A program made the position numbers and the translations under genes. Below are positions 49 through 9,532 of a stretch of 64,000 nt of DNA, piece by piece (the stretch's first letter is position 1; each line of letters opens with the position of its first letter). Origin of the DNA: Sphaerochaetaceae bacterium (GTDB lineage Bacteria > Spirochaetota > Spirochaetia > Sphaerochaetales > Sphaerochaetaceae); contig JAILPZ010000009.1 of the NCBI GenBank assembly GCA_024699225.1, forward strand, positions 1 through 64,000. Direction: 5' to 3'. A model generated the notes under the pieces. It did no database searches. It was not told the origin of the DNA and saw nothing but the letters and a program-made list of their open reading frames with translations.

Positions 49-164
49 ATAGTTCACCTCCTTTCCTGCATAGGATTTGAGGCAAACACCCCACTACAGG
101 AAGTAATGAGGCTCAAACCGCCTACCGTTTACTGGCCGGACATATAAATAGTAAACTTGCTTAA

Positions 165-192
165 TTGATATTTTCAGATGCTTTGTTATAAT
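165..192 (+). promoter_or_regulatory. Sigma70-like promoter of putative antisense RNA
   Basis: TTGATA (165-170), 16-nt spacer, TATAAT (187-192). Confidence 0.7.
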
Positions 193-198
193 AAAGAT

Positions 199-279
199 AG
201 AGTCCAGCCAGGATAAGCGGCTGAGCCTCTAAGATGTTTTAATAAACTGCCTTATTGCTCAAGGCAGTTTTATTTTTTT
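199..279 (+). ncRNA. Putative antisense antitoxin RNA (~80 nt) converging on the toxin micro-ORF
   Basis: Lies between a strong promoter and a perfect intrinsic terminator; no convincing ORF; 3' end complementary to the toxin mRNA 3' region. Confidence 0.6.
244..279 (+). terminator. Intrinsic terminator (stem works in both directions)
   Basis: AAACTGCCTT-ATTGCTC-AAGGCAGTTT 10-bp stem followed by TATTTTTTT. Confidence 0.8.
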
Positions 280-344
280 CTGAGAGCTTTCAGCAACAGT
301 CCCATGACTATAAAGGCAAGAGAAAGTATTTCGAAATCAGTCAT
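270..344 (-). CDS. Putative type I toxin micropeptide, 24 aa (MTDFEILSLAFIVMGLLLKALRKK)
   Basis: Read directly on minus strand: ATG at 344-342, TAA at 272-270, SD GAGGTGA upstream; single hydrophobic segment plus basic C-terminus as in Hol_Tox/TxpA/BsrG-type toxins. Confidence 0.7.
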   Translation of the reverse strand: MTDFEILSLAFIVMGLLLKALRKK

Positions 345-491
345 AAAGTTCACCTCATTATAGGAGGCTTAAACTATGTATCTGTTATGTTTGATTGTCG
401 GTTTTTAGGTTAAAAGATTCTGATTTCCGAAGAAAAATGTCGGATTAGGCAAAAATAAAAGCCCATTTCCTACACTGGCTTGAGAGGCGGT

Positions 492-1244
492 TTATTTTTG
501 TCTTGAAATCTTGCCCAGGAGAACCGGGACTTCGCTTACGAGCAGAACCAGGGCAATCATGATTAAGGCATAGGCGTAAATATCCTGGTACTCGTTGAAG
601 TAGCTGCTGCTGTGGATGGCCTTGCCAAGTGAGTTTTTAGTCTGAACAAGATATTCGGTTGAGACTACGAGCTTCATGCCCATACCTACTGCGCTTATGT
701 AGGCCTGCTTAAGATATCCTGCCATAAGAGGAAGGTGGACGGTTCTTAAGATTCTGAAGCTGAAATTTCCCTCCATCCTGTACACGTCAAGAAGGTCCTT
801 ATCAAGGCTCAGATAGCCTTCACAGGTGGCCTCGCTGATAAGGGGAATGAGAAAAAGAGAAGTTGCTATCACAGGCACTCTCTCATAGTCTGTTAAGACC
901 ATGATTATCACCACCATTATTACCATGGGAATGGAGCGAAGAAGAATCTTAAGAGGCCTGATTAGAGCCCTGAAAAACGGGCTTCTGCCCTCAAGAACAC
1001 CAAAGGTGATGCCGAGAGCAGAAGAAATTAAAAGTGAGAATAAAAGGTCTTTGAGAGTTACCAGAATCTTTGCATAGGTCTCTTCCTTCTTAAGAAGATT
1101 TACAAAGGCCTTGAGTATTTCTATAACATTCGGGAAGACAAGAGTGTCCCCCTTAAGCCATCCGGCTGCCTGAATCAGACAGCCTATGAGGATGATTCCG
1201 AGAAAAGATACAAGTGCGTTATCCTGTCGCTTATTTTGTGCCAT
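492..1244 (-). CDS. ABC transporter permease (SsuC/TauC/ThiX-like)
   Basis: Multi-TM protein with BPD_transp_1-type EAA region; internal start MAQNKRQ overlaps the upstream SBP stop. Confidence 0.8.
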   Translation of the reverse strand: MAQNKRQDNALVSFLGIILIGCLIQAAGWLKGDTLVFPNVIEILKAFVNLLKKEETYAKILVTLKDLLFSLLISSALGITFGVLEGRSPFFRALIRPLKILLRSIPMVIMVVIIMVLTDYERVPVIATSLFLIPLISEATCEGYLSLDKDLLDVYRMEGNFSFRILRTVHLPLMAGYLKQAYISAVGMGMKLVVSTEYLVQTKNSLGKAIHSSSYFNEYQDIYAYALIMIALVLLVSEVPVLLGKISRQK

Positions 1245-2154
1245 AGTAGAAATCATCAGCCGGGACGGAGCCGCCAAACTGTTTAAGATCAATATTTGCA
1301 GTACTTTCAAGGCTATCTTTTGCCTGTAAAGCTGCCACATAGTTAATACTGCAGTTGGGTATGGCGCTTAAAGCAACCTTAAGGGAAGGAAGAATCTCAA
1401 GCTCCACAGCAGCATTGGCCACAGTCTCTAAGTCTGTTGTGCACTTATCGCAGGAGGCTTTAGCTACTTCAAGGTAGGCATCAACTGTCTCAGGACTGTT
1501 TTCTGCCAGTGATGCTTTAACAAAAAGCCCTGCCTGAGTGAAACCCGTGCTTTCCATAGCCTCATTAACAGAATAGCCTGTGACATTACTGTTCTTTACG
1601 CTTGCTGCTGTAAGAGCCGGCTCTGCTGTAAGAACTATTGCAGAAGGATCAGAGAGCAAAAGCTGCTGTGTATTTGCAGCTGAAGCCAGGTAGGAAACAC
1701 TGGCAGGGGTTATTCCGTTTTTCTTAAGGGCATAAAGGGCTATGGAAGAGTTGATGGTGTTCTCGCCAAACATGGTTATGTCGGCTCCGTCAATATCAGA
1801 TAAAGTGAAGTTTTCCTTCTGGGAAGCAAAGAAAAGGTTGCCCCAGGAGATAACGGCAGCGAGTTTGTAGGTGGACTTACCCATCTTGTAGAGCTTGGCT
1901 CCTGCATTTATGGGGGCTACTATGAAATCAGATGTACCGTTGGCAAATTCAGCTGTAACTGTTTCAGCTGCTATGAATGTGTAGAGTTCAGGATTCTCAG
2001 CTGCAGCAACAGCCAGACCTATTGCAGGTGCACCACTGGGAGCTGCAATTTTTAAAGATGATAAATCAACATCTGATTTTGCCTCCTTCTTGCCCCCTGC
2101 AAAAACACAGAAAGAGATAAGAAGAACAAGTAGTACAGTTAGTAATTTTTTCAT
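1231..2154 (-). CDS. ABC transporter substrate-binding lipoprotein (NMT1/THI5-like)
   Basis: Start MKKLLTVLLVLLISFCVFAGGKKE with SD AAGGA; periplasmic SBP features (NGTSDFIVAPINAGAKLYKMGK). Confidence 0.8.
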   Translation of the reverse strand: MKKLLTVLLVLLISFCVFAGGKKEAKSDVDLSSLKIAAPSGAPAIGLAVAAAENPELYTFIAAETVTAEFANGTSDFIVAPINAGAKLYKMGKSTYKLAAVISWGNLFFASQKENFTLSDIDGADITMFGENTINSSIALYALKKNGITPASVSYLASAANTQQLLLSDPSAIVLTAEPALTAASVKNSNVTGYSVNEAMESTGFTQAGLFVKASLAENSPETVDAYLEVAKASCDKCTTDLETVANAAVELEILPSLKVALSAIPNCSINYVAALQAKDSLESTANIDLKQFGGSVPADDFYYGTK

Positions 2155-2311
2155 ATATATTCCTTCGGATTTCAAGTTAGTTTGGGCTAACCTGTCATCC
2201 GGCCCCATATTAGTCCAAGATTCGGGAAATTAAAAGACCCCCTGCTATTCTAATAAAAATCATACCTGTTATCCACTGTTTAACTGTTTCAGGCCATGTT
2301 AATATTTTCGT

Positions 2312-6567: not shown

Positions 6568-8403
6568 ATGAAAAACAGTCAGACACTTACTAAATCACAG
6601 AGGGCTCTCAACAACTTTGCCGCTTATTTTTCTAAGCCCGCAAACGTTATAGTTGTTGCTTCTCTGATTATTCTGCTGTTATGCATTGTCTACCCCATGT
6701 ATGCGGTTCTCAACGCATCTCTCACTGTCGGGCAGATGGATTCTCTTATGTACAACTCCCTTTTCGGCCTGAAACTGGCCAAGGGTGATTTTACATCTCT
6801 GAATTTCCACATGCTGATGTTCGGCAAGTACAGTTCAGATTACAGCATGTCCTTCTTCTGGAAGCCGCTGTGGAACAGTATCCGAATGTCTACATATTCA
6901 TCTCTCATAGCTCTTATTCTCGGAGGTATGATAGCCTGGCTTATTACAAGAACCGACATTAAGTATAAAAAATATATTTCGTCTGTTTTTGTATTCCCAT
7001 ACATCATGCCGTCATGGACGCTTGCTCTTGTATGGAAAAACGTCTTTGCCAACTCCAGGGTTGGAACAGGAGTTACCGGCATGCTTGAAAGCCTGACAGG
7101 CATATGCGTGCCGTCCTGGTTTGTATATGGAATTTTCCCGTGTGCAGTAGTTATGGGAATTCACTATGCACCTTTTGCATACATCCTTATAGGAGGCATT
7201 CTGAGAAACATGGATGCAAACCTTGAGGAAGCTGCCACAATACTGAAGGCCGACAGGTGGAGAATAACCAGAAAGGTAACACTGCCGATTGTCATGCCGG
7301 CCCTGATTTCAACAGTGCTTCTTGTTTTCTCAAGTACCATGGCTTCATATGCCGTACCGGTGTTTGTAGGATCTCCGGGAGACTTCTATGTCATGTCAAC
7401 CATGCTCAGGTCCCTCTACAGCTCTTCTTATTCCGGACAGTCTTACGTCATGACTCTTGTTCTTGTACTTATAGGTATAATGATGCTCTCTCTGAACCAG
7501 TCTGTAATAGGAAAGAGAAAATCCTTTACAACAGTTACAGGAAAGTCAGGACAGGTATCATTTATCAGACTTAAGGGAAACAAGGCATTATCAATAGTGA
7601 TAGTCGTGCTTTTGTTCTTTATAGCAATCTTCCCCATCTTCTCCTTTGCACTCGAGTCTTTGTGCGGAGTTCAGGGAGACTACTCTACCCTTACTCTGAA
7701 ATACTGGATAAGCAGAGAGGATCTTGGAGGTTTCCATGTTCCTGTAGGAAAGGGCATTCTTTTCAACGCAGAAATCTGGGGCGCCCTCTGGGGAAGCCTG
7801 AAGCTGTCCATAGTTGTTTCTCTTGTTGTAGGAACCCTTGGCTTCCTTATCGGCTATGGTGTTTCAAAGAACAGAGGTTCAAAGCTTGCAACCCTTCTTT
7901 CAAACGTTGCATTCTTCCCCTACCTCATCCCGTCAATGGCCTTTGGATCCATCTTCCTTGCCGTTTCTACAAAGCTTCTGTTTCTGAGGGGAACTTTCTT
8001 CCTTCTTGTTCTTGTTGCATCAATTAAGTACCTGCCCTTTGCTTCCAGAAGCGGGACCAGTGCCATGATGCAGCTCTCGGGTGAGATTGAAGAAGCTGCC
8101 ATAATTGTCGGAGCACCGTGGATTGTCAGAATGACAAGAATCCTGTTCCCAATACAGAAATCCAGCTTCATCAGCGGATATCTTCTTCCGTTTGTTTCAT
8201 GTATAAGAGAGCTTTCTCTGTTTGTACTTTTGACATCAAGCGGAACTCTGATTACAACACTGCTTTCATACTTTGATGAAAGAAACGTTGTTCAGATGTC
8301 AAACGGAATAAACCTTTTGATAATCATTGTTGTTCTTGTTGTTAACTTTACAACAAACAAACTTACCGGAGCATCTATAGACAAGGGAATTGGAGGAAAC
8401 TGA
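6568..8403 (+). CDS. ABC transporter permease, fused double-domain (FbpB/AfuB-like)
   Basis: Two BPD_transp domains in one 611-aa polypeptide; EEAATILKADRWRI and EEAAIIVGAPWIVRM EAA loops. Confidence 0.9.
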   Translation: MKNSQTLTKSQRALNNFAAYFSKPANVIVVASLIILLLCIVYPMYAVLNASLTVGQMDSLMYNSLFGLKLAKGDFTSLNFHMLMFGKYSSDYSMSFFWKPLWNSIRMSTYSSLIALILGGMIAWLITRTDIKYKKYISSVFVFPYIMPSWTLALVWKNVFANSRVGTGVTGMLESLTGICVPSWFVYGIFPCAVVMGIHYAPFAYILIGGILRNMDANLEEAATILKADRWRITRKVTLPIVMPALISTVLLVFSSTMASYAVPVFVGSPGDFYVMSTMLRSLYSSSYSGQSYVMTLVLVLIGIMMLSLNQSVIGKRKSFTTVTGKSGQVSFIRLKGNKALSIVIVVLLFFIAIFPIFSFALESLCGVQGDYSTLTLKYWISREDLGGFHVPVGKGILFNAEIWGALWGSLKLSIVVSLVVGTLGFLIGYGVSKNRGSKLATLLSNVAFFPYLIPSMAFGSIFLAVSTKLLFLRGTFFLLVLVASIKYLPFASRSGTSAMMQLSGEIEEAAIIVGAPWIVRMTRILFPIQKSSFISGYLLPFVSCIRELSLFVLLTSSGTLITTLLSYFDERNVVQMSNGINLLIIIVVLVVNFTTNKLTGASIDKGIGGN

Positions 8404-8404
8404 T

Positions 8405-9532
8405 ATGCCGGAAATAGTACTTAAAAACATAACAAAAAAATGGGGTGGCTTTACTGCAGTAGAGAACCTTGACCTTAAGATAGAAGACGGAGCATTTATT
8501 ACACTCCTCGGTCCCTCAGGCTGTGGAAAGACAACAACACTCAGAATGATTGCCGGACTTGAAACACCCAGTTCCGGAGAAATAACAATAGACGGAAAGG
8601 TTGTATTCAGTTCTGACAAAGGTATAAACATTTCTGCGGCAAAAAGAGATGTAGGATTTCTGTTCCAGAACTACGCCCTGTGGCCGCACATGACAGTCTA
8701 CCAGAATATTGCATTCGGCCTTGAGACCCTTAAATGGAAAAAGCCTGATATTGAAAAGCGCGTATCTGAGATGCTTGATACCATGCAGATTCAGCAGTTT
8801 GCCCAAAGATATCCTTCAGAGCTTTCCGGAGGTCAGCAGCAGAGAGTTGCCATAGCCAGAACACTTGCTCCAAAACCAAAGGTACTGTTCATGGATGAAC
8901 CGCTTTCAAACCTTGATGCAAAACTAAGGGGAGAGATGAGAACAGAGCTTAAGCGTCTTCACATAGATACAGGTTCAACCTTTGTCTATGTTACACACGA
9001 CCAGCTTGAAGCCATGACTATGGCTACAAAGATCTGCCTCATGAAAGAAGGCGTACTGCAGCAGTATGATGCACCACTGGATGTCTACGCTCTTCCTGCA
9101 AACCGCTTTGTTGCAGACTTTGTAGGAAACCCCACCATGAACTTTATTGATGGCAAGGTAAAGGTTACCGGTAAAAGAACTGCCCAGCTCGAATTTTTGG
9201 GAAGCAGCTTTGTTTTCCATGCAAAGGAAGATATCAATCTCCAGGACGGAGATGTTACAATTGGAATCAGACCTGAGTCTCTCCCAATTGCAGAAAAAGG
9301 AAAAGCTCCAAACCAGATTACCGGCTCTGCCTACTCTACACTTCCTGCAGGTATGGAAACAACAGTTAAAATCAAGGTTGGAAACACCATACTTTCCTCA
9401 GTCATGTTTGGCTCACTGGATTACAAGGTAGACTCAGAAGTGCACTTCTCAATTCTTGGAGACAGGGTCCTTCTTTTCAACATGGAAGGAAAACGTGTTG
9501 CTTCAGGTTCAGTTGAGAAAAAAGGAGAATAA
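8405..9532 (+). CDS. ABC transporter ATP-binding protein (FbpC/PotA-like)
   Basis: Walker A GPSGCGKTT, signature LSGGQQQRVAIART, Walker B VLFMDEP, TOBE-like C-terminus. Confidence 0.95.
   Translation: MPEIVLKNITKKWGGFTAVENLDLKIEDGAFITLLGPSGCGKTTTLRMIAGLETPSSGEITIDGKVVFSSDKGINISAAKRDVGFLFQNYALWPHMTVYQNIAFGLETLKWKKPDIEKRVSEMLDTMQIQQFAQRYPSELSGGQQQRVAIARTLAPKPKVLFMDEPLSNLDAKLRGEMRTELKRLHIDTGSTFVYVTHDQLEAMTMATKICLMKEGVLQQYDAPLDVYALPANRFVADFVGNPTMNFIDGKVKVTGKRTAQLEFLGSSFVFHAKEDINLQDGDVTIGIRPESLPIAEKGKAPNQITGSAYSTLPAGMETTVKIKVGNTILSSVMFGSLDYKVDSEVHFSILGDRVLLFNMEGKRVASGSVEKKGE

Follow-up and report, generated by a model that had tools for sequence, protein, structure and literature searches.

A candidate type I toxin-antitoxin family of Spirochaetota that resembles Hol_Tox, with a predicted 5'-3' fold-back in its toxin mRNAs

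Before a cyanobacterial candidate appeared in 2025, type I toxin-antitoxin systems were known only from Proteobacteria, Firmicutes, and Tenericutes (PMC12390103), and the literature searched here, which was covered in part, reports none from a spirochaete. In txpA/RatA and bsrG/SR4 of Bacillus subtilis, the antitoxin pairs with the 3' end of the toxin mRNA and the duplex is cut by RNase III, with SR4 making contact with the 3' part of bsrG helix P1 (PMC6562991, PMC7430163). AapA/IsoA mRNAs of Helicobacter are silenced by a 5'-3' interaction that is removed by 3' trimming, and transient hairpins masking the Shine-Dalgarno sequence (SD) act before that interaction; type I toxin mRNAs typically have layered masking of this kind (PMC6733600). 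The locus described here lies at the start of the window, i.e., the whole stretch of 64,000 nucleotides analyzed from a Sphaerochaetaceae bacterium. In common with bsrG/SR4, txpA/RatA, and bsrE/SR5, to which it is likened by layout, it has a predicted overlap of antitoxin and mRNA 3' end and a partly sequestered SD, although the B. subtilis antitoxins (163-222 nt) and toxins (30-59 aa) are longer (PMC6562991, PMC7430163). With aapA/IsoA and hok/Sok, the family to which the locus belongs shares long-distance 5'-3' pairing and SD-masking hairpins, which in those systems silence the mRNA (PMC6733600), but the spirochaete antitoxin overlaps the 3' end, and its first nucleotides are almost identical to those of the toxin mRNA. 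We propose, with a probability of roughly 0.8, that the locus belongs to a tandem array on the chromosome, made up of members of a type I toxin-antitoxin family that resembles Hol_Tox and works by the mechanism set out below (features in Table 1).

Table 1. Features of the two units at the start of the window, by position and strand.
Feature	Position	Strand	Basis
Toxin-like ORF T1, MTDFEILSLAFIVMGLLLKALRKK*, 24 codons	270..344	-	ORF call, paralogue comparison
T1 Shine-Dalgarno GAGGTG (356-351) and its pairing partner GCCTCC (368-363)	351..368	-	remnant of family leader
Antisense promoter TTGATA-16-TATAAT, TG before the -10, 11/12	165..192	+	pattern; antisense model
Predicted antitoxin RNA for T1, ~80 nt	199..279	+	ends inferred from promoter and terminator
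5' hairpin of T1 antitoxin RNA	199..230	+	predicted fold
Bidirectional terminator, end of antitoxin RNA; 10-bp stem 244-270, T tract 270-279	244..279	+	
Start of toxin-like ORF T2 (MTDFELISLILMIMGL...), completed on contig C31	1..48	-	
T2 leader: 5' fold-back element (141-108), middle hairpin, SD-masking hairpin (SD 62-55)	49..142	-	

The elements of the flagged unit, T1, that the initial annotation had described are all present, namely the 24-aa minus-strand ORF with its good SD, the plus-strand promoter, and the predicted ~80-nt RNA ending at a 10-bp terminator over the toxin stop, and the type I layout that it proposed, a membrane peptide with a convergent antisense RNA overlapping the 3' end, holds up at sequence level. 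What it missed was the second unit at 1-142, which makes T1 the atypical copy of a tandem pair, the pairing of the SD with GCCTCC, which in RNA folding forms a predicted hairpin masking the SD, and the repeat that gives mRNA and antisense RNA similar 5' ends. The terminator stem overlaps the T1 stop codon and could be used by the toxin mRNA too. The sequence of the 5' hairpin in the T1 antitoxin RNA recurs at the start of the T2 toxin mRNA, as an inverted repeat in the DNA. In par/Fst of Enterococcus, RNAI and RNAII are likewise convergent and have a common bidirectional terminator; there, direct repeats make both RNAs complementary outside the terminator, whereas the spirochaete repeats are inverted. 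Pattern counts do not exceed chance (4.4 +/- 2.2 promoter-like sites expected and 6 present; 3.1 terminator-like sites expected and 3 present), and it is the antisense-model match to the T1 promoter and 5' element at 161-232 (E=2.6e-5), together with further paralogous copies of the T1 peptide elsewhere in the same genome, that lifts the locus above chance. The T1 antisense was left out of the training set of that model but the T2 antisense, a close relative, was included, so that the match is not a fully independent test.

Judged from its sequence, T1 is the atypical copy of the pair, as the 5' half of its fold-back has been lost. Its leader does not match the family leader model, the 5' element and the middle being gone; the 5'-3' fold-back is absent (-18.2 against -15.5 +/- 2.9 for shuffled sequences); and a convincing toxin promoter was looked for and not found. 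With the fold-back absent and no convincing promoter found, T1 could be decaying. It is possible, though less likely than not, that T1 is a decaying relic and that its antisense RNA alone has kept a function, perhaps as an antitoxin acting in trans on T2, which has a nearly identical 3' UTR: the missing 5' element and leader-model match, the near-shuffled folding energy, and an ORF-less antisense-like remnant in the same genome would all fit, but T1 retains its SD with the masking hairpin and an intact ORF that differs from that of T2 with pS 0.62 and pN 0.16. The remnant, on contig C36 (L016 1501-1548, G000), consists of a promoter and a 5' element of the antisense kind but has no neighbouring toxin ORF, and is possibly an orphan antitoxin or a relic; an apparent likeness between C36 and the region upstream of T1 found no support in a search. 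Adjoining the T1 locus, window positions 492-2208 encode an ABC transporter permease (BPD_transp_1) and a probable substrate-binding lipoprotein without a Pfam match at the threshold used, and no phage-like features were seen there.

T2 is the better-preserved unit, with the full canonical anatomy. The window starts at the first base of contig C51, and over positions 1-141 C51 and C31 are exact reverse complements of each other, a typical assembly overlap; joining the two contigs gives a complete second unit of leader, ORF, terminator, and antisense gene. The leader model matches T2 at 46-142 (E=1e-24, with the T2 leader in the training set), and the fold-back with the 3' UTR, which is nearly identical to that of T1, reaches -50.9 kcal/mol compared to -21.9 +/- 3.2 for shuffled sequences. 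The translation (MTDFELISLILMIMGLLLKAFRKN...) extends to 33 aa across the terminator because the A run before the stop has one A fewer than in T1, a difference (L002 94-192) that is either real or a homopolymer assembly error. A third toxin copy in this genome, on contig C68 (L003 1400-1800, G000), abuts a transposase-like ORF; its own antisense gene has apparently been replaced, and a further toxin-less antisense-like sequence follows it.

A covariance model built from seven leaders, which includes the SD and ATG and no codon beyond, matches 54 of 141 genomes searched from the spirochaete family of the window, in 5/22 genera. Among the 111 leader matches inspected in fetched loci, 82 run directly into a hydrophobic ORF of 20-42 aa, most commonly starting M[ST]D[FY]E[IL]L. 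Across 21 disjoint pairs, the codons show purifying selection (pN/pS about 0.25; codon-position differences 75/21/119). The spirochaete host suggested at the outset is also borne out: a 3003-base exact match between an 'uncultured Spirochaetaceae bacterium' locus (L177) and L073 (G138), which belongs to the family of the window, places the host in Spirochaetota. L177 came from a contig scan for MTDFE[IL][LI]S, which also returned loci from Lachnospiraceae and Clostridiales; the peptide alignment A4 was too diverse for such a scan. Across 395 genomes of the phylum, matches of the antisense model beyond the family were mostly promoter-only; two longer ones (L160, L164) were rejected because no such locus is present there. 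Chloroflexi matches (L174/L175) were rejected as long unrelated ORFs. Searches of phage, plasmid, and viral-contig sequences for the spirochaete version gave no match or unrelated sequences. Tandem arrays occur also on G080 contigs, and G085 contig C5 carries four antisense copies ~430 bp apart (7077-8435).

A second peptide class, e.g., MKEILDLVLKALEVAKAAVSLLRDIKETRRSTKK, stands under the same leader. Six loci (L111 251-344, L117 251-349, L129 251-340, L128 601-690, L119 601-705, and L118 251-349) combine the same leader and fold-back with a different peptide class, which is amphipathic, charged, and 34-39 aa long; coding selection on this class is less clear, with pN about equal to pS between L111 and L117. 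This class suggests that toxins may have been swapped under one RNA cassette.

How far the family resembles Hol_Tox depends on whether peptide or locus is compared. The resemblance claimed in the initial annotation stands for the anatomy of the locus and fails for the Pfam profile (PF16935): the HMM search that it had advised gave no match for the window peptide or its relatives, no genome over the cut-off among 101 of the spirochaete family, and sub-threshold matches there that look like chance. The nearest relative by N-terminal motif, Lachnospiraceae locus L172, itself scores 20.9 bits against a cut-off of 23.3, and 19/120 genomes of its Lachnospiraceae family carry Hol_Tox genes over the cut-off. 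One genome of that Lachnospiraceae family, G561, holds three Hol_Tox copies (L205, L208, L210) exactly 401 bp apart. The Lachnospiraceae and Clostridiales loci from the contig scan have the layout of the spirochaete loci, as do three loci annotated 'putative holin-like toxin', of which two are from lactobacillus plasmids and the third is from phage Osiris (Brevibacillus). Hol_Tox loci of Lachnospiraceae, lactobacillus plasmids, and the Brevibacillus phage share with the spirochaete loci a short N-terminal motif, one hydrophobic helix, and a basic end in the peptide. In both sets compared, 81 spirochaete-family and 20 Firmicutes loci (mostly Pfam Hol_Tox), the common pattern is a terminator just past the stop, a convergent antisense promoter beyond it, and a leader whose 5' end is complementary to the 3' UTR; T2 shows all of this and T1 all except the 5' half. 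An antisense promoter-like sequence was present in most of the 20 Firmicutes loci, and their 5'-3' complementarity reached z<-3 in 18. In contrast, peptides of the spirochaetes have fewer residues (about 23 aa) or a KNNRH ending and fall below the Pfam profile, and the 5' element of the RNA follows a consensus of its own (GGCACTGCC...ACGG...GACCTC). Searching 125 kb with the spirochaete leader model placed several Firmicutes leader-position matches, all weak, among the eight best. That anatomy, found also in toxin-annotated plasmid and phage copies, and the layered SD masking typical of type I toxin mRNAs make it improbable that the peptide is instead a small membrane regulator tuned by an antisense RNA, as the several copies tolerated per genome might suggest.

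Predicted folds of the family leaders comprise a 5' element, a hairpin in the middle, and a further hairpin that masks the SD. An antisense gene with its own promoter overlaps the predicted toxin mRNA: the promoter, TTGAC-N17-TATNNT, is nearly universal (at least 9/12 in 69/75 loci compared to 11% of shuffles), and a toxin promoter of at least 8/12 occurs in 63/74 loci compared to 35% of shuffles. As the antisense RNA start (RAAAGAGGCACTGCCGATR) and the toxin mRNA start (GGCACTGCC) are nearly alike, the 5' end of the leader is complementary to the mRNA 3' UTR; this complementarity takes in roughly 35 nt at the start of the toxin mRNA, and z<-3 was obtained in 75/81 spirochaete-family loci against mononucleotide shuffles. 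In register, 95% of cells pair and 119 are double-change cells, whereas an alignment slid by 1-3 columns gives at most 72% and 24, with the caveat that the cells are not all independent because the loci are related. Differences between leader and antisense keep G-U pairs in 233 cases and break pairs by transition in 66, an asymmetry that comes partly from a few fixed columns and does not represent 233 independent events, and some fold-back columns are 32% identical yet 99% pairable. The covariation and the kept G-U wobbles point to a fold-back within the mRNA, which would fit these data better than a repeat acting at the DNA level. Covarying 5'-3' pairing of the hok/aapA kind is found in the toxin mRNAs, T1 being the exception, and the fold-back dominates the predicted ensemble in 75/76 of them. 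It is very improbable that the units are MITE-like small mobile elements whose terminal inverted repeats create the complementarity and whose ORF is a passenger, since, despite ~30-nt inverted repeats around each unit and several dispersed and tandem copies per genome, the conserved promoters lie outside both repeats, the ORF is under codon constraint, and neither the bias toward G-U pairs nor the pairable, dissimilar columns are expected from selection on a DNA repeat.

In the type I reading, a short mRNA would encode a membrane peptide of 23-36 aa, formed of one helix and a basic C terminus, and a stronger convergent promoter would produce a ~80-100 nt antisense RNA over the ORF end and 3' UTR. 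In a canonical unit such as T2, the toxin mRNA would be translationally silent, with a hairpin enclosing its SD and the initial ~35 nt folded back onto the 3' end, a fold that requires the toxin mRNA to read through the bidirectional terminator. The antitoxin RNA is an exact complement of the mRNA 3' end, where the mRNA 5' element would pair through G-U pairs and a bulge, so that the antitoxin should win the competition; the resulting long duplex would be cleaved by RNase III. From this arrangement we infer transcription of both RNAs and repression of the toxin. When antitoxin runs short, end-trimmed mRNA may be translated and the peptide could then damage the membrane. Thermodynamic folding leaves the SD mostly paired either way (median unpaired 0.27, and 0.23 after removal of the 3' end), and since the SD is not freed, the calculation does not support the activation step. 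T1 keeps the peptide ORF, the antisense gene, and the SD-masking hairpin and lacks the 5' half of the fold-back. More tentatively, and we consider this rather unlikely, Spirochaetota and Firmicutes might have a fold-back RNA cassette in common, in which the antitoxin is a copy of the mRNA 5' end, perfect and wobble pairs compete for the 3' end, and toxin peptides are swapped in. Helix P1 of bsrG might be the same 5'-3' helix, which we offer as a lead rather than a result.

Searches of the window locus against Pfam, NCBIfam, PADLOC, and Rfam (4227 families) returned nothing, and neither the peptide nor the RNA falls within a family of Pfam, NCBIfam, or Rfam. We conclude that the locus probably represents a known kind of system in an added phylum, with Spirochaetota having a type I toxin-antitoxin family that is Hol_Tox-like. 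Its presence in 54/141 genomes of one spirochaete family would extend the type I kind to another phylum, and RNA-based searching finds such loci where peptide profiles miss them. The family would also provide a sharp, testable claim on how these toxin mRNAs are silenced in both phyla.
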